Part shown: positions 2,084 through 36,410 of the stretch, in pieces | Layout of the letters: each line of letters starts with the position of its first letter | How positions within the stretch are numbered: position 1 is the first letter of the stretch | Assembly: GCA_012730045.1 (NCBI GenBank) | Contig: JAAYBR010000048.1 | Coordinates: 1 to 40,683, forward strand | DNA length: 40,683 nt | Origin: Candidatus Hydrogenedentota bacterium | GTDB lineage: Bacteria; Hydrogenedentota; Hydrogenedentia; Hydrogenedentales; CAITNO01 | Direction of reading: 5' to 3' | Made by a program: the position numbers and the translations under genes | The notes under the pieces: generated by a model | The model's database searches: none | Seen by the model: the letters and a program-made list of their open reading frames with translations, nothing else | Told to the model about the DNA's origin: nothing

Positions 2084-2131
2084 AAATGGCGTACCCGGAG
2101 GGACTCGAACCCCCAACCTTCTGGTCCGTAG
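2084..2131 (-). repeat. Attachment-site copy; displaced tRNA-Arg 3' end
   Basis: These 48 bp are identical to 8478-8525 and comprise the CCA end, acceptor 3' strand, T arm, variable loop and 3' side of the anticodon stem-loop of tRNA-Arg. The match ends at the anticodon loop (G at 2132 versus C at 8526). Without a 5' half it cannot make a tRNA, so it is read as the chromosomal 3' end displaced by integration. Confidence 0.92.
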
Positions 2132-2249
2132 GGACTAAAAGCGGGTTTTTCGAGTTTTCGCCCGCGCATCGGCGACGCTGTAAACCCTTTGTTTTCAAGT
2201 TTGTCTGACAAGGGAAGAATAACACACCTCGCATACAATTGCAAGTGAT

Positions 2250-2278
2250 TTTACCCAAAACCGGGTAAATTACCTAGC
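2250..2278. promoter_or_regulatory. Putative recombinase arm/operator site (left)
   Basis: An inverted repeat TTTACCC/GGGTAAA (2250-2256, 2263-2269) overlaps the 15-mer GGTAAATTACCTAGC (2264-2278). The same 15-mer recurs at 8392-8406 near the opposite end of the element. AT-rich paired sites about 130 bp inside each end fit arm-type integrase or excisionase binding sites; this role is inferred from position. Confidence 0.5.
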
Positions 2279-2414
2279 AAGTTGTTTTCGGTGAGTGCAT
2301 GAAGGGGTCAGGCATGACAAACACAATAGGACCGCGCCACAGCCCCGCAGAGCGCGTTTCTCCCTCCGGTGGTCTGTTCACCCGCCTCCGGTCGTGATCG
2401 TGCCCCCTGCGGCC

Positions 2415-2735
2415 TCTGTGGCGGTCTATTCTTGGAACCTTCACCGCCGCCACCTCACCACCTCACAGCGGGCAATGGTGGCGACCGCCGTGCTCCCGAT
2501 GCTGGAGGAACAGGCGAAAGAGCGCATGAAGGAAGCCGGGGCGAAGGGTGCGGCAATCGCAGGGAAGGGGAGGCCCGCACAGAATGATAGGGGGGTCGCA
2601 AATTTGCGACCCCCCGAAGAGGTGGACAACAAACACCTCGCATCCGCAGACGCGGCCACCATGTTGAACGTCTCCCCGCGCAGTGTACAGACCGCCAAGA
2701 AGGTGCAACAGGCCGCGCCGGAACTCGCTGAAAAG
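2415..2735 (+). pseudogene. ParB-like protein remnant
   Basis: The plus-strand translation reads NLHRRHLTTSQRAMVATAVL, then about 60 residues later LNVSPRSVQTAKKVQQAAPE. This pair is characteristic of the region just after the ParB/Spo0J-like nuclease domain and of the following HTH in phage- and plasmid-borne ParB-like proteins. The nuclease domain that should precede it is missing, and homology stops abruptly at about 2735, just before a hairpin terminator. There is no plausible start codon with a ribosome binding site. It points the opposite way from every intact gene of the element. I read it as a fragment truncated at both ends. The frame stays open to 3653 only because it runs antisense to real genes. 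Confidence 0.6.
2590..2615. repeat. 26-bp perfect palindrome
   Basis: Six G, then TCGCAAATTTGCGA, then six C form a perfect dyad within the ParB-like remnant. It is self-complementary over its full length. It could be a protein-binding site or a hairpin; no role is shown. Confidence 0.7.
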
Positions 2736-2768
2736 GGAAACCCCCGGCCAGCGGGTGCCAGCCGGGGG
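2731..2768 (-). terminator. Intrinsic-like terminator of element operon
   Basis: On the minus strand a stem CCCCCGGC/GCCGGGGG (2761-2768 pairing with 2741-2748) with a 12-nt loop is followed by TTTCCCTTTT. It lies 30 bp beyond the last minus-strand gene (ends 2798), where an operon terminator is expected. The T tract is interrupted, so termination efficiency is uncertain. Confidence 0.6.
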
Positions 2769-2797
2769 CGGGGAGCATGTGCCCCTATGCCGAGAAA

Positions 2798-2998
2798 CTA
2801 TTTTTCGCGCAGATGGCGAGCGCGGAGCATGTCGCCCAGCGGTAGGGCCTGTCCCGGCTCCGGGAAGGGGTACACCGTCTCCCGGCTCCGGGCAACGGCC
2901 CTGATAGCCTCGGAAAGTTTTCCGTTAGGCTCATGCGGTCGGACAGCCTCGGCCAGTGCGGCGCGGATCATGCGGGCGAGGGGGGTGTTACTCTCCAT
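2798..2998 (-). CDS. Hypothetical 66-aa element protein
   Basis: This is a small, mostly helical, Arg/Ala-rich protein (MESNTPLARMIRAALAEAVR at its start) with no domain I recognise. Its start overlaps the end of the upstream coiled-coil gene by 11 bp if the ATG at 2998 is used, or by 20 bp from the ATG at 3007. Such overlap is the rule in this operon and is the main evidence that it is a gene. It is the last gene before the terminator hairpin at 2741-2768. Its role is unknown; being near the element end proves nothing about function. Confidence 0.5.
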   Translation of the reverse strand: MESNTPLARMIRAALAEAVRPHEPNGKLSEAIRAVARSRETVYPFPEPGQALPLGDMLRARHLREK

Positions 2999-3533
2999 TG
3001 GAAGCATCCTCGAGCATGTCGGTTATCAGGCGGTGCCCAGTGGCCAGCCGCGCGACGGCGAGGGCGCGGAAGCTCCGGGGCGAACACGCGCCGCCGAGGT
3101 GCCCCCCACGCTTCGGGTATGCCGCCGAAAACTCGCGGACCCGCCCCTCGGCCTGATGATGCAGCACATGGAGCCGCTGGGCCGCCGCGTGCATCTCCGC
3201 CACGGCGCGCTCGATGATCACGGCCTCGGCGTCCTGGGCCGCGTGAAGCTCCGCCAGGGCGTCGCCGACTTCCGCGCGCGCCTCCGGCTCGGCATCTGCG
3301 CGGGCAATGCGGACGGCCTCGGCGTGGGCGCGCAGAACGGACTCCAAGTCTGCGACTTCCCCCCTGTGCTTCGTGATCGTCTTGCGCGCCGTCTGTCCTC
3401 CCTCGCCGTCGGCGAGTTCCTGCGCAAGGTCAGCCTCGGCGCGGCTCAGTCCGCCGCGCGCGGCCTCCAGTTCGTGGGCGATGACAGCGGCGGCGGCCTC
3501 CAGGCTGCGGACGTGGTGAAGTGCTTCAATCAT
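2988..3533 (-). CDS. Hypothetical coiled-coil element protein
   Basis: This 181-aa protein is rich in Ala, Glu and Arg with heptad-like spacing over residues 10-130 (for example SLEAAAAVIAHELEAARGGL), suggesting long alpha-helical coiled coil. The C-terminal 50 residues are different (Gly/Arg-rich, then LATGHRLITDMLED). No catalytic motif or membrane segment is visible. Its ATG overlaps the stop of the upstream terS-like gene by 8 bp (ATGATTGA), indicating translational coupling. A structural or accessory role alongside the upstream DNA-binding protein is possible but only inferred from position. Confidence 0.6.
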   Translation of the reverse strand: MIEALHHVRSLEAAAAVIAHELEAARGGLSRAEADLAQELADGEGGQTARKTITKHRGEVADLESVLRAHAEAVRIARADAEPEARAEVGDALAELHAAQDAEAVIIERAVAEMHAAAQRLHVLHHQAEGRVREFSAAYPKRGGHLGGACSPRSFRALAVARLATGHRLITDMLEDASNGE

Positions 3534-3996
3534 GGTCTGCCTCCAGAATCTGCGCGGCCAGCGCGCGGAGTTCGTCGTCTGTCATTTTGGTGTAGGGATT
3601 CTCCCCGCTGGGATCGGTCGGCGCGATTTTCTGCGGCGCGTCAAGGCCGTTGAGCTTCGCGCGCCGTTCCATGATGCGGAGGACGCGGTCGGCGGCGGGA
3701 AACACGCCCGCAAGTGCTTTTTCCCATAGCGCGGCCTGCATCTCGTCGAGTCTCTGGTTTTCCAGCTCGCGCAGATGCTCGGCCAGTTCGGCGCACTCGG
3801 CCAGCGTCTCGGCCAGCGCGTCGCGGACGTAACGGTAGGCGGTTGATGTGTCCACGCCGAGAGTGTCGCCGATCCCGGCGAATGTCAGGCCTTTGATTCG
3901 CAGTGCCAGGGCGTCGGCACGTCGCCCGGCGGCGGCTGCGCAGTCGGGCCTAGCCTTGGCGGTGTGTCTTTTTGTGGGCCGTACATTGTCAGTCAT
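3526..3996 (-). CDS. Terminase-small-subunit-like HTH DNA-binding protein
   Basis: This 156-aa protein has an N-terminal helix-turn-helix (about residues 24-62, ALALRIKGLTFAGIGDTLGV then STAYRYVRDAL). A helical segment follows, then RVLRIMERRAKLNGLDAPQK near residues 103-122. That combination is typical of small phage proteins annotated as terminase small subunits or HTH packaging proteins. In phages TerS recognises the packaging site and loads the large terminase; no large subunit gene is visible here. In some phage satellites a TerS redirects helper-phage packaging, which would fit this element, but that is inference. The start overlaps the upstream gene by 8 bp (ATGACTGA). A plain transcriptional regulator is the main alternative. 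Confidence 0.6.
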   Translation of the reverse strand: MTDNVRPTKRHTAKARPDCAAAAGRRADALALRIKGLTFAGIGDTLGVDTSTAYRYVRDALAETLAECAELAEHLRELENQRLDEMQAALWEKALAGVFPAADRVLRIMERRAKLNGLDAPQKIAPTDPSGENPYTKMTDDELRALAAQILEADHD

Positions 3997-4633
3997 TAGC
4001 GCGCTCCTTCTTCCGGTCGGGGACCGCCCGCAGTGTGTGCGCGTCCGTGGGCGGCTTCGGCGGTGAGAGGCGCGGCATGGGCTTCACGGGCTTCTGGCGC
4101 GTGTTCGTGAAGTGCTGGCCGTGCCCCGCGACGATGACGCGGGCGGGCCTTTTGGGGGTGTCGGTCATTTTCTGGTTTCCTTTCACGGTTTGCCCGTTAT
4201 GGCCTATTTCCGGCCCTTGGGGCGTTTTTAGGGTTTCAGCGGATACAGACAAGGCTGGGGAGGTGAACGCGTCTCCTGCGGCCTCCTGCGCGTTTCTTTT
4301 CGCGATGCAGTCGCGGAGTTCCACCACCAGTGGGCGGATTGTCTCCGCGTAGTCCATCCCGGCGGATTCAGCGTCACGGATGGATGCGTACAGCTCCCCT
4401 TCCCGGCGGCGCAGCCGCCCAGGCATGTCTTGGGGCGTCTGCGCCGATCCGCACCCTGTAGCGCAAGCGGAAGGGGGCGCGTCGGTGCTGCGCCCCTTCC
4501 TGCTAACGGGGGGGTTAAAGGGGGGGGATTCCGCCCTCTGCGTCAACCGCGTCAACCGCGTCAACCTCTTAAGGGAAACACGCGGTTGGCGCACCCGGTT
4601 GGCGCACCCTGCGGGGCGGTCAGAAGGGCACAT
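3989..4633 (-). CDS. Hypothetical element protein, start uncertain
   Basis: The frame is open from before 4633 and ends at 3989. The ATG at 4633 overlaps the end of the repA-like gene by 14 bp and gives 214 aa. The first 45 residues are low complexity, because the iteron-like DNA repeats at 4541-4609 translate as RLTRLTRLT and similar. A better conserved-looking part begins near MPGRLRRREGELYASIRDAE, with a helical stretch to about residue 128. A second strong start exists at 4168: GAAAGGA lies 9 nt before ATG and would yield a separate 59-aa Lys/Pro-rich basic protein (MTDTPKRPARVIVAGHGQHF at its start). Two nested products are possible. No domain is recognised. Confidence 0.5.
   Translation of the reverse strand: MCPSDRPAGCANRVRQPRVSLKRLTRLTRLTQRAESPPFNPPVSRKGRSTDAPPSACATGCGSAQTPQDMPGRLRRREGELYASIRDAESAGMDYAETIRPLVVELRDCIAKRNAQEAAGDAFTSPALSVSAETLKTPQGPEIGHNGQTVKGNQKMTDTPKRPARVIVAGHGQHFTNTRQKPVKPMPRLSPPKPPTDAHTLRAVPDRKKERAND
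4541..4609. repeat. Iteron-like direct repeats
   Basis: Three tandem 9-mers CGTCAACCG (4541-4549, 4550-4558, and 4559-4566 lacking its last G) are followed 17 bp later by two tandem 13-mers GGTTGGCGCACCC (4584-4596, 4597-4609). The second set contains GGTTG, the complement of CAACC in the first, so the two sets face each other. They begin 11 bp beyond the repA-like stop. Tandem repeats next to a replication-initiator gene often form its origin; that role is inferred. Confidence 0.6.
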
Positions 4634-6176
4634 CGTATTCCTCCTCCGTGTAAAGTTCATCGAACACCCCCCCGGCGGGCTGTAGTGTCTCGACTTCGTG
4701 ACGGTTCGGCTTGCGGACAGTCTCGACGCGGAGTTTCCCGGCAGCGACAAGGGACTGGACAGCCGCCTCGACATCGCGGTTGCGCGCCCAGCCGACGGCG
4801 GCCAGGACGGCGGAAACCAGCCGCCCGGCGTCGCCCTTGCCTTGACAGACGGCGCGCGGGTTGATGATCACCGCAGGGTTGTTATGCACCCATCGCAGGA
4901 CGGCCGCCTCGACTTCCCGGCGGTCATGCGTCACGGGGCCGCCAATGGACTCCAGACAGCCGCCGTCGCCCACGGACACAATGCGCAGATGCAGACGCGC
5001 CTCACCGCTGGAAAACTGCGGCTTAGTGTTACTCAATTCGAGGGTGCCGTCTGCGGTGCGTTTCAGCTCCCACGCGCCGCGCGCCTCATCGGTTACGGCG
5101 GAGCTTCCCCGGACATTCTCGGCGGATGCGTCGCCCTTCCCCGTGCCTTTGCGCGTGTGCGCCAATACCAGCACGGCGGCCTCGGAGTCCCGCGCAATGT
5201 CGCCCAGGACGGCCATAAGCTCGCCCATCGCGGCAGCGTCATTTCCGTCAATGGCACCCCCAGCACGGCGCAGCGTGTCCACCACGACTAGCGCGGGCCT
5301 CATGGCGCGGACCGCCGCGCGCAGCTCCCGGCAAAAGGCGGTCGGGCGGACATTCCCCGCGCGGTCAAGTTCTACCAGCGGACCGGGGGTGTCGAGGAGG
5401 TGGACATGCTGCGCCATGTCGGCGGCCATGCGGTCAGCGTCGAGGCGGTGGTGCATCTGGAGGGCGCGCCACCGTTTCGCGGCAATGTGGCGGGAGTCTT
5501 CATAGCTCAGGGTCACGACATCGCCATGGGCAAGAGGTGCCATGCCATTGATGAGCGCGCGGCCATGCGCGACGGACACCTCCAGACTGCGGGCAAGCAT
5601 GCTTTTTCCGACGCCTCCGGGAGCCGCCAGCACCGTCACGACGCCGCGCAGCAACCAGCCGTCCACCAGCCACGGCAGCGGCGCGGAGGCAAGGCCGTCA
5701 AGGTTTGACAAGTCGGCGAATTGCAGCCCCGCGCCCGTGTCTCCGCTCAATGCGGCCATGCGCTCTAGGATCGCGGTTTCATCGTCTCCGGCGGTCACAG
5801 CGCGGCGCAGCTCCCCGGCCAGTGCGTCACGCTCGACCGCCCGCAGGAAGTCGCGCACATCGCCCGCACAGAGCGCGGGGGACTGTGTTGGCGGGGCCAG
5901 CGGGTCAAATAGCACCCGGACAAGACCGCTCTCGTTGAGACGGATAACGGCCTCATGGACGGCCTCCTCCGTGATCGGCGCGCGGTCTGCATCCATGCGC
6001 TTGATGATGTCCACCAACACCTCGAACGGATGCCCAAGTCCGCGCAGATCGGCAGGCAGGGACACCAGCTCGCGGACGGCCTCGGCGTTGCCCTGGGCTG
6101 CGCGACGGATCAGACGGCCCAGCGAGTCAGCGGCCAGCGATGCGGCGCGGGTGATGGGGTCCGCGCGTGGGGTCAT
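4620..6176 (-). CDS. RepA-like AAA ATPase / replicative helicase-primase-associated protein
   Basis: This 518-aa protein carries a RecA-fold AAA domain of the RepA/AAA_25 type. The Walker A motif APGGVGKS is at residues 185-192, a Walker B ALVVVD ends at Asp300, and between them lies the family-typical segment VTLSYEDSRHIAAKRWRAL. The N-terminal 150 residues resemble a DnaB-helicase N-terminal-type helical region. A winged-helix-like C-terminus (from about 425) could bind DNA. In plasmids, satellites and islands such proteins act as hexameric helicases at the origin. I chose the ATG at 6176: it overlaps the upstream stop as ATGA and starts at MTPRADPITRA, whereas the longer frame to 6419 is antisense-like and Arg/Pro-rich. 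Iteron-like repeats lie just past its end. Confidence 0.8.
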   Translation of the reverse strand: MTPRADPITRAASLAADSLGRLIRRAAQGNAEAVRELVSLPADLRGLGHPFEVLVDIIKRMDADRAPITEEAVHEAVIRLNESGLVRVLFDPLAPPTQSPALCAGDVRDFLRAVERDALAGELRRAVTAGDDETAILERMAALSGDTGAGLQFADLSNLDGLASAPLPWLVDGWLLRGVVTVLAAPGGVGKSMLARSLEVSVAHGRALINGMAPLAHGDVVTLSYEDSRHIAAKRWRALQMHHRLDADRMAADMAQHVHLLDTPGPLVELDRAGNVRPTAFCRELRAAVRAMRPALVVVDTLRRAGGAIDGNDAAAMGELMAVLGDIARDSEAAVLVLAHTRKGTGKGDASAENVRGSSAVTDEARGAWELKRTADGTLELSNTKPQFSSGEARLHLRIVSVGDGGCLESIGGPVTHDRREVEAAVLRWVHNNPAVIINPRAVCQGKGDAGRLVSAVLAAVGWARNRDVEAAVQSLVAAGKLRVETVRKPNRHEVETLQPAGGVFDELYTEEEYDVPF

Positions 6177-6523
6177 TTCAAGCACCCTCGGCGACGGAGG
6201 TTTTCCCGCGCCTCGGCCACGGCCTTGTCGCGCTCGGCGTCGGTGCGGGTGCGCTCCGTCTGCGCCGGGGTGGGCGCGGCGGATGCAGTCAGCGGGCGGT
6301 CGGCCTGGGCCAGCCGCTGGCCGAAGTCTCGGAGAGCATCCTCCGTGACGCGAATCTCGCGCCCCATGCGGAGGTATTTCAGAGACACGCCACGGCACCC
6401 CTTGCGGCACCATCGCCACACTGTGACGGTGGACGGGCGTTTCCCGCCGCGCCCAAGGTATGCAGCGGCCTCAGGGAGTGTCAAAAGGGAGGGGGAGGGG
6501 GAGGGGGTCAAGGGAGCACTCAT
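6173..6523 (-). CDS. Excisionase-like / MerR-type HTH DNA-binding protein
   Basis: This 116-aa protein has an N-terminal winged-helix of the excisionase/HTH_17 kind: LLTLPEAAAYLGRGG (about residues 14-28), TVTVWRWCRKGCRGVSLKYL and MGREIRVTEDALRDFGQRL. A charged helical tail follows. Such proteins bend DNA at attachment sites to favour excision or act as regulators of element genes. I chose the ATG at 6523, preceded by GAAAGG at 8 nt spacing; an upstream ATG at 6601 would start inside the promoter. It is the first gene of the operon and is translationally coupled to the repA-like gene (ATGA at 6173-6176). Confidence 0.75.
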   Translation of the reverse strand: MSAPLTPSPSPSLLTLPEAAAYLGRGGKRPSTVTVWRWCRKGCRGVSLKYLRMGREIRVTEDALRDFGQRLAQADRPLTASAAPTPAQTERTRTDAERDKAVAEARENLRRRGCLK

Positions 6524-6599
6524 ATCCGGCAACCTTTCAGTTACTGGTGTGCTCCTTTTGAAACATCGGCAGATACACTCTACCTTCGTTTCGCTCCGC

Positions 6600-6628
6600 A
6601 TTATATCACACGTTTACCCCCATTGCAA
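6600..6628 (-). promoter_or_regulatory. Sigma-70-type promoter of the element operon
   Basis: On the minus strand TTGCAA (6623-6628) and a perfect TATAAT (6600-6605) are separated by exactly 17 nt. The start of the excisionase-like gene is 77 nt downstream of the -10 box. It lies in an AT-rich island, unusual in this GC-rich window. Confidence 0.75.
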
Positions 6629-6653
6629 GTGGTACAGCACACTACTTCACCAC

Positions 6654-6672
6654 GCGAAAAGTCAATTTTCGC
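6654..6672. promoter_or_regulatory. Operator-like inverted repeat
   Basis: GCGAAAA-GTCAA-TTTTCGC forms a perfect 7-bp dyad with a 5-nt spacer, 25 bp upstream of the -35 box of the operon promoter. The position suits a repressor or activator site. The binding protein is unknown; the excisionase-like product is a candidate. Confidence 0.5.
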
Positions 6673-6700
6673 ACTAATGGTATATAGCGCAATTCGCCTG

Positions 6701-7093
6701 TCATGGGACGGCGTTATTCTCGCAGTCGCGGCCATAGTTCACAAGGGAGCATGTCTCGCAGTCTCCGCCGTTCTGTGTGCAATAGTGCGGCGGCACGGTC
6801 CAGCCCAGGGCCTGGGCGGCCTCGCGGATCACCCGGCGGATGCGGGCATCCTGATGCACGTCGCGCGGCACCATGCGCCGCCGCGCCTCCTCCTCGGATT
6901 CGATCAGCTCGTAGTGGTGAAGGTCATGCGCAAACGCGGCGAGGTAATCATCATCGGAGGGCGCATCCGGCCATGCCCACGCGGACCCGGCGTTAGACTC
7001 GCAGGCCTCGACGAATTGCGCCAAAGTGAAAACGGCGTAGGCCTCGGCGGGCCTCTGGTGGGGAACCTCTACAAGAATGTGCGGGTACATCAT
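6701..7093 (-). CDS. Hypothetical element protein with C-terminal Cys cluster
   Basis: This 130-aa acidic protein has no domain I recognise. Its last 30 residues hold four cysteines (YCTQNGGDCETCSLVNYGRD, then CE), a spacing that could bind a metal. The middle is Glu/Arg-rich and likely helical. The ATG at 7093 is preceded by GAAAGGA at 7 nt. This ribosome binding site lies in a 15-mer (complement TCCTTTCACGGTTTG, 7101-7115) that recurs exactly at 4178-4192 before another element start. It sits 70 bp after the integrase stop on the same strand, so it may be co-transcribed with it. Its role is unknown. Confidence 0.65.
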   Translation of the reverse strand: MMYPHILVEVPHQRPAEAYAVFTLAQFVEACESNAGSAWAWPDAPSDDDYLAAFAHDLHHYELIESEEEARRRMVPRDVHQDARIRRVIREAAQALGWTVPPHYCTQNGGDCETCSLVNYGRDCENNAVP

Positions 7094-7163
7094 CGGTCTA
7101 TCCTTTCACGGTTTGAACATGGCACCCGACGGCGACAGACCACGGGCGCGCATGTGGTCTGCA

Positions 7164-8369
7164 TCATCCAATTTTCGCGGCGACGGTGGCGGCCAGTGCT
7201 TTGTCGGCCTCGGCGTAGACTTGAGTTATTGCGGCGTCGGCGTGCCCCAGCGCGGCGCGCGCGGCCTCCAGTCCAAAGTGTTGACGGGCACGGGTCGCGT
7301 ATGAGTGGCGCATCTGGTGAACGTGCCAATGGGGCACAGCCTCCCCATCCTCTAGCGGACGGCCCAGCTCCATTTCCCGCGCCTTGTTTGCCTTGCGCAC
7401 CCCCACGGTGACGGCATGGCAGACGCTGGCGTTGGTGTAGTGCTCGCCCAGGGTCCGGTCGGTCTCGCGCAGGTTCGGTAGCTGGTTTGGTCTGCGGTGA
7501 ACCCGGCATCCCTCAGACCATTCTTTCATCGCGTCGGCGGGAGGGAACAGATACCCGTCACGGTGGCGGAGCATGGCCTCTTTCAGTATCCGCTGGGCCT
7601 CCGGTCCGAAACAGATAACGCGGGTCTTGCCCAACCCGGCGGTCTTGTGATCTTTCGGGCTATAGGTCCAGACGGGGCCGGAGCGGTCAATGTCTACGGC
7701 TTTGACGGCCACCAGCTCGCCGACGCGGGCACCAGAATGCCAAAGCACCAGCACCAGCTCTCGGACGGGCCGGGGAAGGTGCGGCAGGGTGGCGGCGACG
7801 GTCGCCCACTCAACAGGACGGACAGGCTCCGGCTCCGTCGTGCCGGGTGCATGGCCGCGCCGCAGTCCCTTCACACACCGCAGGGCCTCGGGGATGGAAC
7901 CGGGAATCAGCTCCATGGATGCGCCCCATGCAAAAATCGCGGTGACGGACTGCGCCATGCGGTTGACAGTCCGGCGGCTCAGTGTTCCATCGCACAAGGC
8001 CGCGCGGTATTGTTGGAGTGCCAGCGGGCCGTACTCGGCGGCTGGCATCCCCCCGGCAAAATCGGCGAAACGACCACACCATGTAAGCAGGGTTGAGCGG
8101 TGTGTGTTGTCAGGCAGATACCCGACAAGGTGCGCCGTGTATTTGTCCACCAGCTCCATGACGGTGATCAGCCTCGGAGACGGCGGGGCGGGTTGGCGAC
8201 CATGGGACAGCCAGCGGGCTATCTCGGCCTGATAGCGGACCTGGGCGGCTTCGGGGTCACTTCCCAGCCATGTATCGCGCCCATTCAGGGTGACGCGGTA
8301 ATGGCCTGTTCCCTTGTGAAAACGGAGCGAGGGAACCTTCTGGATTGCACGTTTGGACTTAATAGACAT
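7164..8369 (-). CDS. int: Tyrosine recombinase (integrase)
   Basis: This 401-aa site-specific recombinase integrates and excises the element at tRNA-Arg. The N-terminal part (1-60) resembles an arm-binding domain, followed by a SAM-like core-binding domain (about 68-165) and the catalytic domain (about 185-400). The catalytic set is complete: Arg215 in HSGARVGELV, Lys242 in KDHKT, His351 and Arg354 in HQMRHSYAT, His376 in LGHADAAIT and the nucleophile Tyr385 in VYAEAD. Length matches the phage-integrase family. The start at 8369 is preceded by GGGAGG with a rather long spacer (about 11 nt). The gene lies just downstream of tRNA-Arg on the same strand, so read-through from the tRNA promoter could contribute to its expression. 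Confidence 0.95.
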   Translation of the reverse strand: MSIKSKRAIQKVPSLRFHKGTGHYRVTLNGRDTWLGSDPEAAQVRYQAEIARWLSHGRQPAPPSPRLITVMELVDKYTAHLVGYLPDNTHRSTLLTWCGRFADFAGGMPAAEYGPLALQQYRAALCDGTLSRRTVNRMAQSVTAIFAWGASMELIPGSIPEALRCVKGLRRGHAPGTTEPEPVRPVEWATVAATLPHLPRPVRELVLVLWHSGARVGELVAVKAVDIDRSGPVWTYSPKDHKTAGLGKTRVICFGPEAQRILKEAMLRHRDGYLFPPADAMKEWSEGCRVHRRPNQLPNLRETDRTLGEHYTNASVCHAVTVGVRKANKAREMELGRPLEDGEAVPHWHVHQMRHSYATRARQHFGLEAARAALGHADAAITQVYAEADKALAATVAAKIG

Positions 8370-8431
8370 CGGCGGCGCAGCCTCCCTGCTAGGTAAATTA
8401 CCTAGCGTTGTAGGGTTTAGCTGCGCCGCCG
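8370..8431. promoter_or_regulatory. Nested palindromic leader of the integrase gene
   Basis: Perfect 12-bp arms CGGCGGCGCAGC (8370-8381) and GCTGCGCCGCCG (8420-8431) enclose a second palindrome, GCTAGGTAA-A-TTACCTAGC (8388-8406). The inner site contains the 15-mer also found near the left end (2264-2278). The outer arm abuts the integrase ATG, so the transcript could fold over the ribosome binding site. A protein-binding role (integrase or Xis arm site, autoregulation) and an RNA-structure role are both possible. Confidence 0.55.
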
Positions 8432-8477
8432 TTGGCGGGTAACGCTCGGCGTAAAGCCTTGCGTTTCAGCATCTTAT

Positions 8478-8525
8478 AAATGGCGTACCCGGAGGGACTC
8501 GAACCCCCAACCTTCTGGTCCGTAG
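8478..8525 (-). repeat. Attachment-site copy inside intact tRNA-Arg
   Basis: This is identical over 48 bp to 2084-2131. It spans from 3 bp beyond the CCA end to the anticodon loop of the tRNA at 8481-8557, and restores a complete tRNA after integration. Confidence 0.92.
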
Positions 8526-8557
8526 CCAGACGCTCAATCCAATTGAGCTACGGGTAC
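8481..8557 (-). tRNA. tRNA-Arg(ACG)
   Basis: On the minus strand the 77-nt sequence folds as a cloverleaf. The acceptor is GTACCCG/CGGGTAC, the D stem GCTC/GAGC, and the anticodon stem TCTGG/CCAGA around the loop CTACGGA with anticodon ACG. The T stem is GGGGG/CCCTC (one G-T pair) with the loop TTCGAGT. The discriminator is G and the CCA end is encoded (complement at 8481-8483). ACG reads CGU and, with A34 converted to inosine, CGC and CGA. The 3' 45 nt come from the integrated element. Confidence 0.96.
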
Positions 8558-8640
8558 GCTGCGCAAGCGTGTAAAGGATACCACAGCCGCGCCGGAGACG
8601 CAAGTTTTTCGCGCACGGCGGGTGTTTCCGGGGCCGCAGC

Positions 8641-11292
8641 CTACTCCCCGAAACTCACTTTGTAGAGGCGCACTTCGGCGTCTTTCACGTTGCAGGGGTC
8701 GAGCCGGAGACTGGAGCTGGGGCCGCGCCAGCGGGGGTGTTTCTCCAGGTCAATCAGCACCTCGTGGGGCGCGCCGTCGGCGGGAACGGCGAAGGACAGG
8801 GCGGTGGCCTCGCCGGAGGCCATGCCCCAGGGCGACCAGAAGAGCTGGCCGTGGACCGTCTCCACGCCGGGGGCGGCGACGGAGAGGGTCAGGCGCATCC
8901 GCCGGTGCGCCGAGGCGCGCAGGCCCTTGGTCACCGCGCGCAGCGCGGGGTCGGCGGTGACGGTGCGGAACACCATGGCGCCGTCGCGGAACTCGGGGGC
9001 GGTCATGCCCATGAAGGGCGACCACGCGCCCGGGCCGTTGGCAAAATCCCAGTCGAGGGTGGACGGCTGCGGGGGGAATTCGTAGGGGCCGAGGCCGAGG
9101 TCGGCGGGGCCGAGGTTCACCGGCCAGGCGGCCGGATCCCCCTCCGCGAAGACGGACCGGAGGGTCTCGTACATGGAGAAGCCGTATTCCGTGTTCGGCT
9201 CGATGTAGCTGCCCTCGCCCCATTCGTTGGCCGGGCCGAGCACGACGAAGGGGAGCTTGCGCTCCGCGCAGAAGGCTTTCGCGCTCTCCAGCAGGCTGCG
9301 GAAGGCCTGCGTGCTCCGGCCGCCGAGGACGATGGATTTGTCGCCGTGCCAGGGGCGCGAGTCCCAGCCCGTGTCCACCACGGGGTAATAGGTCAGGGCG
9401 CCGCAGGTTTCCGCGCGGCGCTTCCATGCGTCCGGGGCCGTGGCGGCGACGTCGTCGAAGCGGGCGAGGGCGGGGGCCGGGGCCGTCTCCACGGCGCGGC
9501 CCCACTCATGGTAGTTTGTCGCCCCGGCGTAGCCCTCCGCAAGGAGGATGGCGGCGTCGGAGGCCGACTCGTGGTCGTGCATGGCGATGAACTCAATGCC
9601 CGCGTGTCCCGCGTCCTTTGCCATCTGCTGCGAGTCCGCCAGGGCCGCCTTCACCTCCTCCGGACCGCCGAGGTCGCGCCGCAGGCCCGAGGGGGCCCAC
9701 AGGAAGACAGCCGGCTTTCCGTTGATCCGGTAGTAGGCCGGCAGGGTGAAGTACTTCTCGATCCATTCGCGCGTGACGGCGCGCCAGTCCTCGCGGGAGT
9801 GGGTGTTGGGCGCATTGTGGTTGGCCCACATGATGGCGACCTCAAGCTGGTCGCGGTACCGGGCTTTCCGGTACGCCTCGAACCAGTGCGTGAGGTGCTG
9901 GTTCCCCGCGACCCAGTACCAGTCCACCAGGAAGCAGTTGATGCCGTTGTCCAGGGCCCATTTGATCTGCCAGTCCACAATTTCCGGGTTCGCCTCGTCG
10001 TAGTAGCCGAGCAGGGGCTTGCGCACCGGCGCGATGTTCCGGATGCAGTCCCACTTTGCGTCGTTCTCCCAGCCGGGGAAGTAGAACATGCAGACGTCCA
10101 GAGAAGTCTTCACCGGCGACGGCTGCGGGACATAGTCCGTCTTGGGCGCGCTCACCGGCGGCAGGAGCGAGAGGGTGGCCGCTGCCGCAGCGCGGCCCGC
10201 CGCATCGCGCAGGGTCACGGGCCGGTCGCCGGGCGTGTCCGCGCGGACGGTCCAGGACAGCGTGCCCGTCTCGCCCCAGCTCAGGGGGGTGCCCGTGTCG
10301 CCGTCGGGGCCGGACACCGTCTCCAGCCCCGCGGCGTCGAGGGTCCATCCGGCCAGCGAGAGGTTCTCCCCGCCCCGGTTGCGGACGGCGGCGACCACGC
10401 GGCAGTCCCGTCCCGCGCGGTTCACGCCGTTCTCCGCGCCGAAATAGGCGACCACGGGGCGCGCCTCCCCGGCGGGCAGGTCGGACAGGGCGAGGGACAC
10501 GGCCTCCGTGGCGGCCGCGCCGGGGAACCGGACCCCCACTGCCGCCAGCGTGCCCGTCCAGCCCGGATTGCCCGCCAGCAGCATGGGATAGACGCGGGTG
10601 CCCGCGTCCACCTCCAGCGCCTCCACCTGAAGCCCCGGCCTGTCCGGGGCGATCCACAACACCTCCGCGCGGCCCGGCGCGGCCGCGCGGATCTCCACAT
10701 TGGCCCAGCCGGCGTCCGCCGCCGCGATGTTCAGCGGGGGGGAGAACCTCCCCGCGTTCCCGGGCAGCGTGGTCCAGCCATCGGCCGTTTTCAGGAGTCC
10801 CGGATCGGTCAGCGGCGCCGTTTCGGCGGCATAGTCCTCCACGCGGAAATGGTCGAGGGCGAAGTCCATCTCCCCCTTGGGCAGGTCCAGCCGGAGCCTC
10901 ACAATGCGCCCTTCCCGGTGCCATCCGGGCATCAGGACGACCTCCTCCCACTCCCCGCCCCCCCGCAGGGAGAAGCGCGCGGAACGCTCCTCTGTCAGCC
11001 CGCCGTAGGGGCCGTCCGTGTTGCCGGTCCAGAAGAGCTGCCCCTGCCCCGCCTGCCCGCAGCGGACGCGCAGCAGCACGTACTGCCAGGGGGTCGCCGG
11101 GAAATCCAGCCCCTCGATGGCGAAGAACGGGTCGCCGCCGGCGGAGCGGCCGCGCAGTTCCCCGGCCTCCACGGCGGCCTGCGGGATCCCCGCGTTGGGC
11201 TGCCAGCCCGCAGGCAGGTCTGTGCCGTCGAAATCCCAGGCGGGGAGGGCGCAGCAGGCGGCGGTGAGGACAAAGGCGGCCAGGGTGTTCAT
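8641..11292 (-). CDS. Exported GH99-like (WbsX-family) glycoside hydrolase-like protein
   Basis: This 883-aa protein has a short signal peptide (MNTLAAFVLTAACCALPAWD), then beta-rich regions (about 20-390) that look like carbohydrate-binding or CARDB-type modules. A TIM-barrel domain of the WbsX/GH99 superfamily starts near residue 395: FYFPGWENDAKWDCIRNIAP, later GYYDEANPEIVDWQIKWALD, CFLVDWYW and PANEWGEGSYIEPN. A last beta domain follows. GH99 enzymes act on alpha-mannan-type glycans, but WbsX-like domains are usually uncharacterised, so the substrate is unknown. The ATG at 11292 has AAGGAA 8 nt upstream and begins the signal peptide; an in-frame ATG at 11373 would put a basic tail in front and is rejected. 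It follows the Crp/Fnr gene by 34 bp on the same strand. Confidence 0.8.
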   Translation of the reverse strand: MNTLAAFVLTAACCALPAWDFDGTDLPAGWQPNAGIPQAAVEAGELRGRSAGGDPFFAIEGLDFPATPWQYVLLRVRCGQAGQGQLFWTGNTDGPYGGLTEERSARFSLRGGGEWEEVVLMPGWHREGRIVRLRLDLPKGEMDFALDHFRVEDYAAETAPLTDPGLLKTADGWTTLPGNAGRFSPPLNIAAADAGWANVEIRAAAPGRAEVLWIAPDRPGLQVEALEVDAGTRVYPMLLAGNPGWTGTLAAVGVRFPGAAATEAVSLALSDLPAGEARPVVAYFGAENGVNRAGRDCRVVAAVRNRGGENLSLAGWTLDAAGLETVSGPDGDTGTPLSWGETGTLSWTVRADTPGDRPVTLRDAAGRAAAAATLSLLPPVSAPKTDYVPQPSPVKTSLDVCMFYFPGWENDAKWDCIRNIAPVRKPLLGYYDEANPEIVDWQIKWALDNGINCFLVDWYWVAGNQHLTHWFEAYRKARYRDQLEVAIMWANHNAPNTHSREDWRAVTREWIEKYFTLPAYYRINGKPAVFLWAPSGLRRDLGGPEEVKAALADSQQMAKDAGHAGIEFIAMHDHESASDAAILLAEGYAGATNYHEWGRAVETAPAPALARFDDVAATAPDAWKRRAETCGALTYYPVVDTGWDSRPWHGDKSIVLGGRSTQAFRSLLESAKAFCAERKLPFVVLGPANEWGEGSYIEPNTEYGFSMYETLRSVFAEGDPAAWPVNLGPADLGLGPYEFPPQPSTLDWDFANGPGAWSPFMGMTAPEFRDGAMVFRTVTADPALRAVTKGLRASAHRRMRLTLSVAAPGVETVHGQLFWSPWGMASGEATALSFAVPADGAPHEVLIDLEKHPRWRGPSSSLRLDPCNVKDAEVRLYKVSFGE

Positions 11293-35984: not shown

Positions 35985-36410
35985 GTAGCGCAGGCGTTCC
36001 GCCTGCAAGGTCTTTATGTCTTATGTACCGCCAGCGTCCCGCTGGCCCCGTCTTTTTCTCTGGCCGCCGGCATGGCTCGCGTGCCAAAGACAAGGCCGCC
36101 GGGACGGCGGCGCTACGGAACAGCCCCGCCAGCCCGCCCCCGTAGCGCAGGCGTCCCGCCTGCAAGGTCTTTCTGCCTTCCGTACCGCCAGCGTCCCGCT
36201 GGCCCCGTCTTTTTCTCTGGCCGCCGGCATGGCTCGCGTGCCAAAGACAAGGCCGCCGGGACGGCGGCGCTACGGAACAGCCCCGCCAGCCCGCCCCCGT
36301 AGCGCCAGCGTCCCGCCTGCAAGGTCTTTCTGTCTTCCGTACCGCCAGCGTCCCGCCTGCAAGGTCTTCCTGCCTTCCGTACCGCCAGCGTCTCGCTGGC
36401 CTTGTCTTCG
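35985..36410. repeat. Array of REP-like hairpin modules with 124-bp duplication
   Basis: Nine short modules share a TCC(C)- or GGGA-type loop, but their stems change in a paired way: GCAGGC/GCCTGC at 35990, CCAGCG/CGCTGG at 36031, CCGCCG/CGGCGG at 36096, and repeats of these to 36399. Two modules (near 36305 and 36345) have hybrid, mismatched stems. Positions 36025-36148 and 36182-36305 are identical over 124 bp (period 157). No gene is supported in 35975-36451. Similar hairpins lie at 1922-2006. Confidence 0.85.

Follow-up and report, generated by a model that had tools for sequence, protein, structure and literature searches.

A stretch of 40,683 nucleotides (contig JAAYBR010000048.1, referred to here in its full length as the window) from the genome of a Candidatus Hydrogenedentota bacterium was analyzed, and the region 2084-8525 is likely to represent a minimal phage satellite carrying its own terminase small subunit (TerS). 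This element, which will be referred to as E1, encodes an integrase, a helicase and TerS but no virus-particle genes; it therefore probably spreads by hijacking other viruses and, judged from sequence, the same probably holds for two relatives in the same genome.

E1 is a complete integrated unit of ~6.4 kb which ends in perfect 48-bp direct repeats, the attachment (att) repeats, with a start-to-start spacing of 6394 bp. The distal repeat (2084-2131, + strand) is identical to the proximal one (8478-8525, + strand), which consists of the 3′ half of a tRNA-Arg gene plus 3 bp. The tRNA-Arg(ACG) gene itself (8481-8557, − strand; identified by ARAGORN and as Rfam RF00005) is intact and represents the integration site; the 3′ half of a tRNA gene is the usual kind of target for tyrosine integrases. 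E1 thus shows the general hallmarks of an integrated satellite, att-bounded and equipped with an integrase. The extent originally proposed for the element (2798-8369) covers the genes but is too narrow, as the att repeats put the ends at 2084 and 8525. The 48-bp att sequence is present in one copy each in two further genomes, G001 and G002. In G001, which belongs to the same genus, a contig (C233, L201, 1-80) starts at the exact first base of this tRNA-Arg(ACG) att sequence, a position that may reflect a break of the assembly at a site that is occupied. The tRNA-Pro repeat of the related element E3 (see below) is single in the stretches G001:C594 and G002:C168, with a left flank that is non-collinear in G001; a clean empty integration locus was not obtained in the G001 and G002 comparisons for the E1 or the E3 site. 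A dispersed repeat of ~30-110 bp, with tens of copies genome-wide, was observed at 1911-2018 and 36025-36279 of the window.

The genes of E1 are arranged on the minus strand in the order int, ORF130, Xis-like gene, RepA gene, a conserved ORF, TerS gene, ORF181 and ORF69, followed by an intrinsic terminator. The integrase, Xis-like, RepA and TerS-like genes named in the original prediction were all found where it had placed them, with family matches for each. The tyrosine integrase (7164-8369) adjoins the tRNA gene, matches PF00589 (Phage_integrase, E 1.6e-9) and phrog_1 (E 4e-35), and has relatives of 42-44% identity next to tRNA genes in G002 and G001. The helix-turn-helix (HTH) protein encoded at 6173-6601 could be a Xis or a regulator; it matches DUF1580 (E 1e-6), HTH_17 (E 1e-5) and the excisionase family phrog_66 (E 6e-6). 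The putative replication protein (4620-6176), for which a family search had been proposed, yielded matches to AAA_25 (PF13481, E 2e-34) and, as the sole match in a PDB search, to the hexameric helicase RepA (1g8y, E 5.8e-11), which we take to be of RSF1010 origin. The protein encoded at 3526-3996 is the TerS, which stands without a large terminase subunit (TerL). It is followed by ORF181 (2988-3533), a predicted helical-rod protein paired with TerS, and by ORF69 (2798-3007), the final gene of the operon. As claimed in the original prediction, structural genes are absent: among the eight E1 proteins scanned against Pfam and PHROG, seven of them also against NCBIfam, no match to structural, lytic or TerL families was obtained, consistent with what is generally expected of satellites.

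Assignment of the 3526-3996 protein to the TerS family is due to its gene context. Its only Pfam match is HTH_23, just under the cut-off, and its best PHROG match is phrog_645 (E 1e-30); the label of this family, RNase E, is not backed by gene context and was rejected. A profile (A1) built from ten relatives matched 170 viral contigs, and the analysis was continued with the best 80. A TerL homologue was detected by HMM directly downstream of the TerS relative in 62 of these 80 contigs, TerS and TerL are joined in one ORF in two, and in one the TerL match is far off. The remaining 15 gave no TerL HMM match; three of them end within 262 bp downstream, and inspection by eye revealed a terminase-like Walker motif in six, in an ORF that adjoins TerS or follows shortly after it. 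The closest named phage protein, gp1 of Arthrobacter phage Bolt007, is annotated as TerS and followed by TerL and portal, with an alignment to the window protein that spans 42 residues only (62% identity). An AlphaFold model (pLDDT 82) predicts an HTH followed by long helices at residues 50-95 and 99-115, in line with the HTH plus helical oligomerisation region of TerS proteins, and its Foldseek neighbours in BFVD include several proteins named terminase small subunit. In named bacterial genomes, 35 TerS loci were examined: TerL was found in 24 by HMM and in one more (L158) by Pfam, and the remaining ten include three Hydrogenedentota elements that recur below and one Lysobacteraceae element. 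On this context, with TerL directly downstream in the viral relatives, the protein is placed in the TerS family, and with this membership a gene for phage packaging or hijacking is present in E1. A match to ordinary transcription regulators only, which had been named as the outcome that would speak against the prediction, did not occur.

The genome of the window harbors two further elements of this kind, E2 (contig C14, L029) at tRNA-Ala(GGC), with 52-bp repeats spaced 5763 bp, and E3 (contig C94, L036) at tRNA-Pro(GGG), with 112-bp repeats that are 98% identical and spaced 5550 bp. The order TerS-ORF181-ORF69 is common to all three. Amino acid identities to E1 in E2 and E3, respectively, are 89% and 55% for TerS, 89.5% and 42% for ORF181, and 71% and 29% for RepA; ORF69 is 95% identical in E2 and 55% over 44 aa in E3. 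E1 and E2 share the block from rep to ORF69 with 75-91% DNA identity but not the integrase, whereas integrase (61%) and Xis (83%) are common to E2 and E3, with RepA proteins only 28% identical. A look for the same gene order at other tRNA sites, as the original prediction had suggested, was successful, and the gene set was found again at further tRNA genes. Related Hydrogenedentota contain four additional TerS-bearing elements of this kind. E4 (G007:C16, tRNA-Val, 19-bp repeat, 5851 bp) and E5 (G007:C141, tRNA-Met, 37-bp repeat, 7345 bp) reside in a genome of the same family as that of the window; E6 (G038:C53) lies at tRNA-His with 31- and 27-bp repeats (6696 bp), and E7 (G018:C9) at tRNA-Val with a 27-bp repeat at the contig start (6887 bp). 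In E5 and E6, DUF3987 takes the place of RepA, so TerS is kept while the replication protein changes. Among the genes scanned between the repeats of E1 to E7, which comprise the main ORFs rather than every short one, none could be assigned to a structural, lytic or TerL family.

Within the same order, TerS was matched at E 1e-6 in 9 of the 68 genomes searched. Seven of the ten strongest matches are E1 to E7; the others are G002:C112, which encodes RepA, TerS and an ORF181 homologue on a contig that stops short of any integrase, G017:C268, in which a terminase-like ORF was recognized by eye after TerS, and G021:C447, which is discussed below. In a TerS tree, E1, E2, E3 and G002:C112 form a supported clade (100/84), all four members of which carry the TerS-ORF181 pair, and E4 and E5 form another supported clade. 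Satellite-labelled rows required 6 changes on this tree compared to a mean of 12.4 after shuffling, and none of 500 shuffles was as low; the deep joins are weak, however, and several long branches are possibly misplaced. Left out of the tree were the 15 viral contigs in which no TerL had been detected by HMM, L155, L156 and L159 (the E4 to E6 loci), and the unclassified L167, L178 and L187. V_L104, with its sole TerL match on the opposite strand and a long way upstream, remained in the phage group. Outside the phylum, a Lysobacteraceae element (L189, 2852-10000) of ~7.1 kb occupies a tmRNA site and carries repeats, integrase and TerS, with no TerL found. A nearly identical TerS was observed in L185 (Pseudomonadota) together with a DUF3987 gene. 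The genome of the window also contains a further integrated element (G000:C75, L035, 4440-11932), in which two identical 90-bp copies of a whole tRNA-Leu, spaced 7408 bp, enclose a distant homologue of RepA; no TerS of the E1 family was found in it. Two tRNA-Arg(CCG) elements with RepA-like genes and 53-54 bp repeats, of 11.1 kb (G001:C473, L038, 5749-16898) and 9.5 kb (G007:C99, L057, 7421-16969), are likewise without such a TerS.

Pairwise dN/dS values (NG86) were obtained for seven gene comparisons; some dS values are high, and the ends of TerS, ORF181 and ORF69 overlap. Between E1 and E2 the values were 0.27 for TerS, 0.32 for ORF181, 0.22 for ORF69 and 0.29 for RepA; between E2 and E3 they were 0.21 for the integrase, 0.28 for Xis and 0.43 for TerS. 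This range of 0.21-0.43 points to purifying selection and thus argues for maintenance of the shared genes rather than decay.

Non-coding candidates for signals of the element were found near its ends. The motif GGTAAATTACC occurs just twice in the window, at 2264-2274 and 8392-8402 (both + strand), close to the distal and the proximal end, and was not obtained in any of 100 shuffles; the two copies are candidate integrase arm or operator sites and are not carried by E2 to E7. At 2337-2426, a 90-bp non-coding hairpin block shares 97.8% identity with E2 (blastn), more than the coding part of the common block, and its predicted fold gave z values of -3.4 and -3.0. This block is a candidate packaging or replication site; as a cos or pac site it can be considered a candidate only, because a 22-bp exact pattern derived from it had no match in IMG/VR and E3 is without the hairpin. 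Between the block and the intrinsic terminator 3′ of ORF69 (2740-2769, − strand, 13-bp stem, also present in the C14 alignment), ~300 bp (2430-2740) are present in E1 without counterpart in E2. A suspected gene fragment at ~2425-2745 on the plus strand was discarded, as no Pfam match was obtained in the frames tested. ORF181, which co-occurs with TerS in C14, C94 and G002:C112, is modelled as a long helical rod (pLDDT 84) and has no phage relative by tblastn. The conserved ORF between RepA and TerS (3989-4633, − strand, 214 aa) has two counterparts in C14 with 63% and 71% amino acid identity; its longer frame (3989-4774) gave no Pfam or PHROG match, and the ORF gave none in PADLOC. ORF130 (6701-7093, − strand) had no match in Pfam, PHROG or NCBIfam and a weak one to Cas4c in PADLOC (E 0.008), which revealed no convincing defence cargo in E1.

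If E1 is a satellite, it would lie dormant until a helper phage becomes active. The integrase and the Xis-like protein would then release it in circular form across the 48-bp site, and the RepA helicase would drive its replication. TerS might bind a site on the satellite's own DNA, for which the hairpin block is a candidate, and recruit TerL and portal of the helper, whereby satellite DNA would fill the helper heads. With 6.4 kb, this would require either a very small capsid or, more simply, a headful concatemer. As a proposed packaging or capsid helper, ORF181 would be the best candidate for an adaptor or capsid-size factor, a function that is a guess. The resulting particles would inject the satellite into a new cell, where it would integrate at the tRNA gene.

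Several observations weigh against this interpretation. We infer the helper, induction, excision and packaging from sequence. A PDB search with TerS gave no significant fold match and nothing meaningful by sequence, and since TerS proteins bind DNA, a lone TerS could have turned into a regulator. ORF181 yielded no Foldseek match at E 0.001, and E3 contains part of the hairpin block only, lacking the hairpin of the proposed packaging site. A packaged copy, which the original prediction had suggested seeking in viromes, did not turn up in IMG/VR: searches with short peptide patterns yielded no close relatives of TerS, RepA or ORF181, whether as single proteins or as A3. The RepA profile (A2) retrieved only generic helicases of 25-33% identity from IMG/VR, and a short-peptide-pattern scan of the genome_contigs collection detected no RepA. 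Because the scans work through short peptide patterns, exact ones in the case of IMG/VR, absence from either collection is weak evidence. The IMG/VR collection is moreover biased towards contigs that carry hallmark genes of viruses and may therefore lack satellites. In favour of the satellite interpretation, the TerL model PF03237 had no match in the genome of the window, compared to matches in 6 of the 30 genomes searched and 6 of 14 control genomes, and phrog_2, which we take to be a TerL family, had none either, compared to 11 of 14 controls. As this genome is 97.5% complete in 155 contigs, a prophage may have been missed. TerL genes on G002:C5 and G007:C42, presumably Mu-like as judged by eye from a motif, were not accepted as helper prophages, with no TerS of the E1 family nearby in the stretches read.

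E1 might alternatively be a decayed prophage remnant, with int, xis, rep and terS as what is left of a larger temperate phage after the loss of its structural genes. Integrase, Xis-like protein, RepA and TerS all match phage families, and one contig, G021:C447 (L055, 4364-10316), combines such genes with virion functions: it begins with an integrase of the window type (36%), encodes a Xis-like protein and a primase, and carries a head-morphogenesis-like protein (8028-8780) upstream of TerS and a tape-measure-like one (PhageMin_Tail, E 5e-16) downstream of it, where the contig ends. This contig, which speaks against the satellite interpretation as well, is perhaps a satellite with few structural genes or a piece of a prophage. 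It alone, and weakly, raises the decayed prophage that the original prediction had named as its counter-case; the consistently small size, the intact att repeats and the purifying selection argue against decay. One genome contains three elements that are close in size (5.55-6.4 kb) and occupy three tRNA genes, their att repeats being perfect or nearly so; together with dN/dS values of 0.21-0.43, a constant TerS-ORF181-ORF69 order and no TerL or capsid match, this speaks against a remnant, and we regard this explanation as unlikely.

A plasmid-like integrative mobilizable element with an RSF1010-type RepA, moved by conjugation and using its TerS-like protein as a DNA-binding regulator, appears improbable. 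RepA is indeed related to 1g8y and weakly to the RepA proteins of two plasmids listed as mobilizable in PLSDB, but no relaxase or mobilisation family was matched in any scanned E1 ORF (Pfam, PHROG, NCBIfam), the TerS family is one of phage packaging by context, and G007:C141 and G038 retain TerS alongside a DUF3987 replication protein. A tRNA island that rarely moves and is kept as an anti-phage weapon, its lone TerS poisoning the packaging of infecting phages, would be in accordance with a TerS without TerL in a genome without detected TerL, where infecting phages would still be met, and known satellites interfere with their helpers (PMC6092414). The maintenance of integrase, Xis-like and replication genes together with the exchange of modules implies mobility, however, and makes this explanation very improbable.

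Only few bacterial groups, most of them cultured, are known to harbor phage satellites. If E1 is a minimal TerS-bearing satellite, the presence of three small module-swapping TerS elements in one genome would mean that hijacking by TerS extends to the Hydrogenedentota, an uncultured phylum, and would point to unseen helper phages there. The att sequence, TerS, ORF181 and the hairpin block provide defined sequences to seek in virion DNA, and E1 bears on the minimum gene number of a TerS-type satellite. Whether these elements form a distinct class of minimal TerS-redirecting satellites of 5.5-7.4 kb, inserted at tRNA or tmRNA genes and assembled from int-xis and rep-TerS modules that can be swapped, we consider evenly balanced. 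Such a class would recur in Hydrogenedentota, have counterparts in Pseudomonadota and, in the lineage of the window, possess a satellite-specific TerS partner in ORF181. It would be among the smallest known satellites that encode a TerS, with packaging either as concatemers or into very small heads. Within the open library searched, nothing was found on Hydrogenedentes in combination with satellites and prophages, nor on satellites in combination with terminase and replication or metagenome.

Among known systems, tycheposons and VEIMEs, which encode a tyrosine recombinase and sit at tRNA genes or are packaged into virions, can be set beside E1 by description only. Both are named in PMC11389934. 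The Streptomyces satellites Mulch and Flayer are small and helper-dependent, as E1 would be, but encode both terminase subunits, portal and capsid compared to only TerS in E1 (PMC10690885). Phage-inducible chromosomal islands (PICI; SaPI and others) resemble E1 in combining an integrase, a small regulator (putative in E1), a replication module and TerS without TerL or structural genes between att sites, and in PICI with their own TerS, this protein steers helper packaging to the island (PMC6092414). Of the trio integrase, replication module and master regulator, E1 has the first two, and its HTH protein may be Xis or regulator. PICI measure 12-15 kb, however, compared to 5.5-6.4 kb for E1, E2 and E3 (6394, 5763 and 5550 bp), and E1 differs further by its RepA helicase replication and by having no recognised stl/alpA-family regulator, toxin or other cargo. 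Phage-inducible chromosomal minimalist islands (PICMI) are similar in size (~6 kb) and likewise encode an integrase, an HTH regulator (putative in E1) and one replication protein without structural genes; they package concatemers in full-sized heads (PMC10803314). E5 and E6, as well as L185, even share the DUF3987 replication family with them. PICMI reside at fis, and no terminase gene is mentioned in the text of PMC10803314, whereas E1-type elements occupy tRNA sites and carry TerS; E1 itself lies at tRNA-Arg, and E1 and E2 use an AAA_25/RepA protein (PF13481 in E1) rather than a DUF3987 primase. As to the AlpA/HTH_17 regulator of PICMI, the E1 protein scored 26.1 bits against PF12728, below the cut-off of 27. 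The new satellite type of the original prediction is a fair description in the sense of a new variant among phage satellites. Since E1 fits neither the full PICI nor the full PICMI definition, we describe it as a TerS-bearing minimal satellite.

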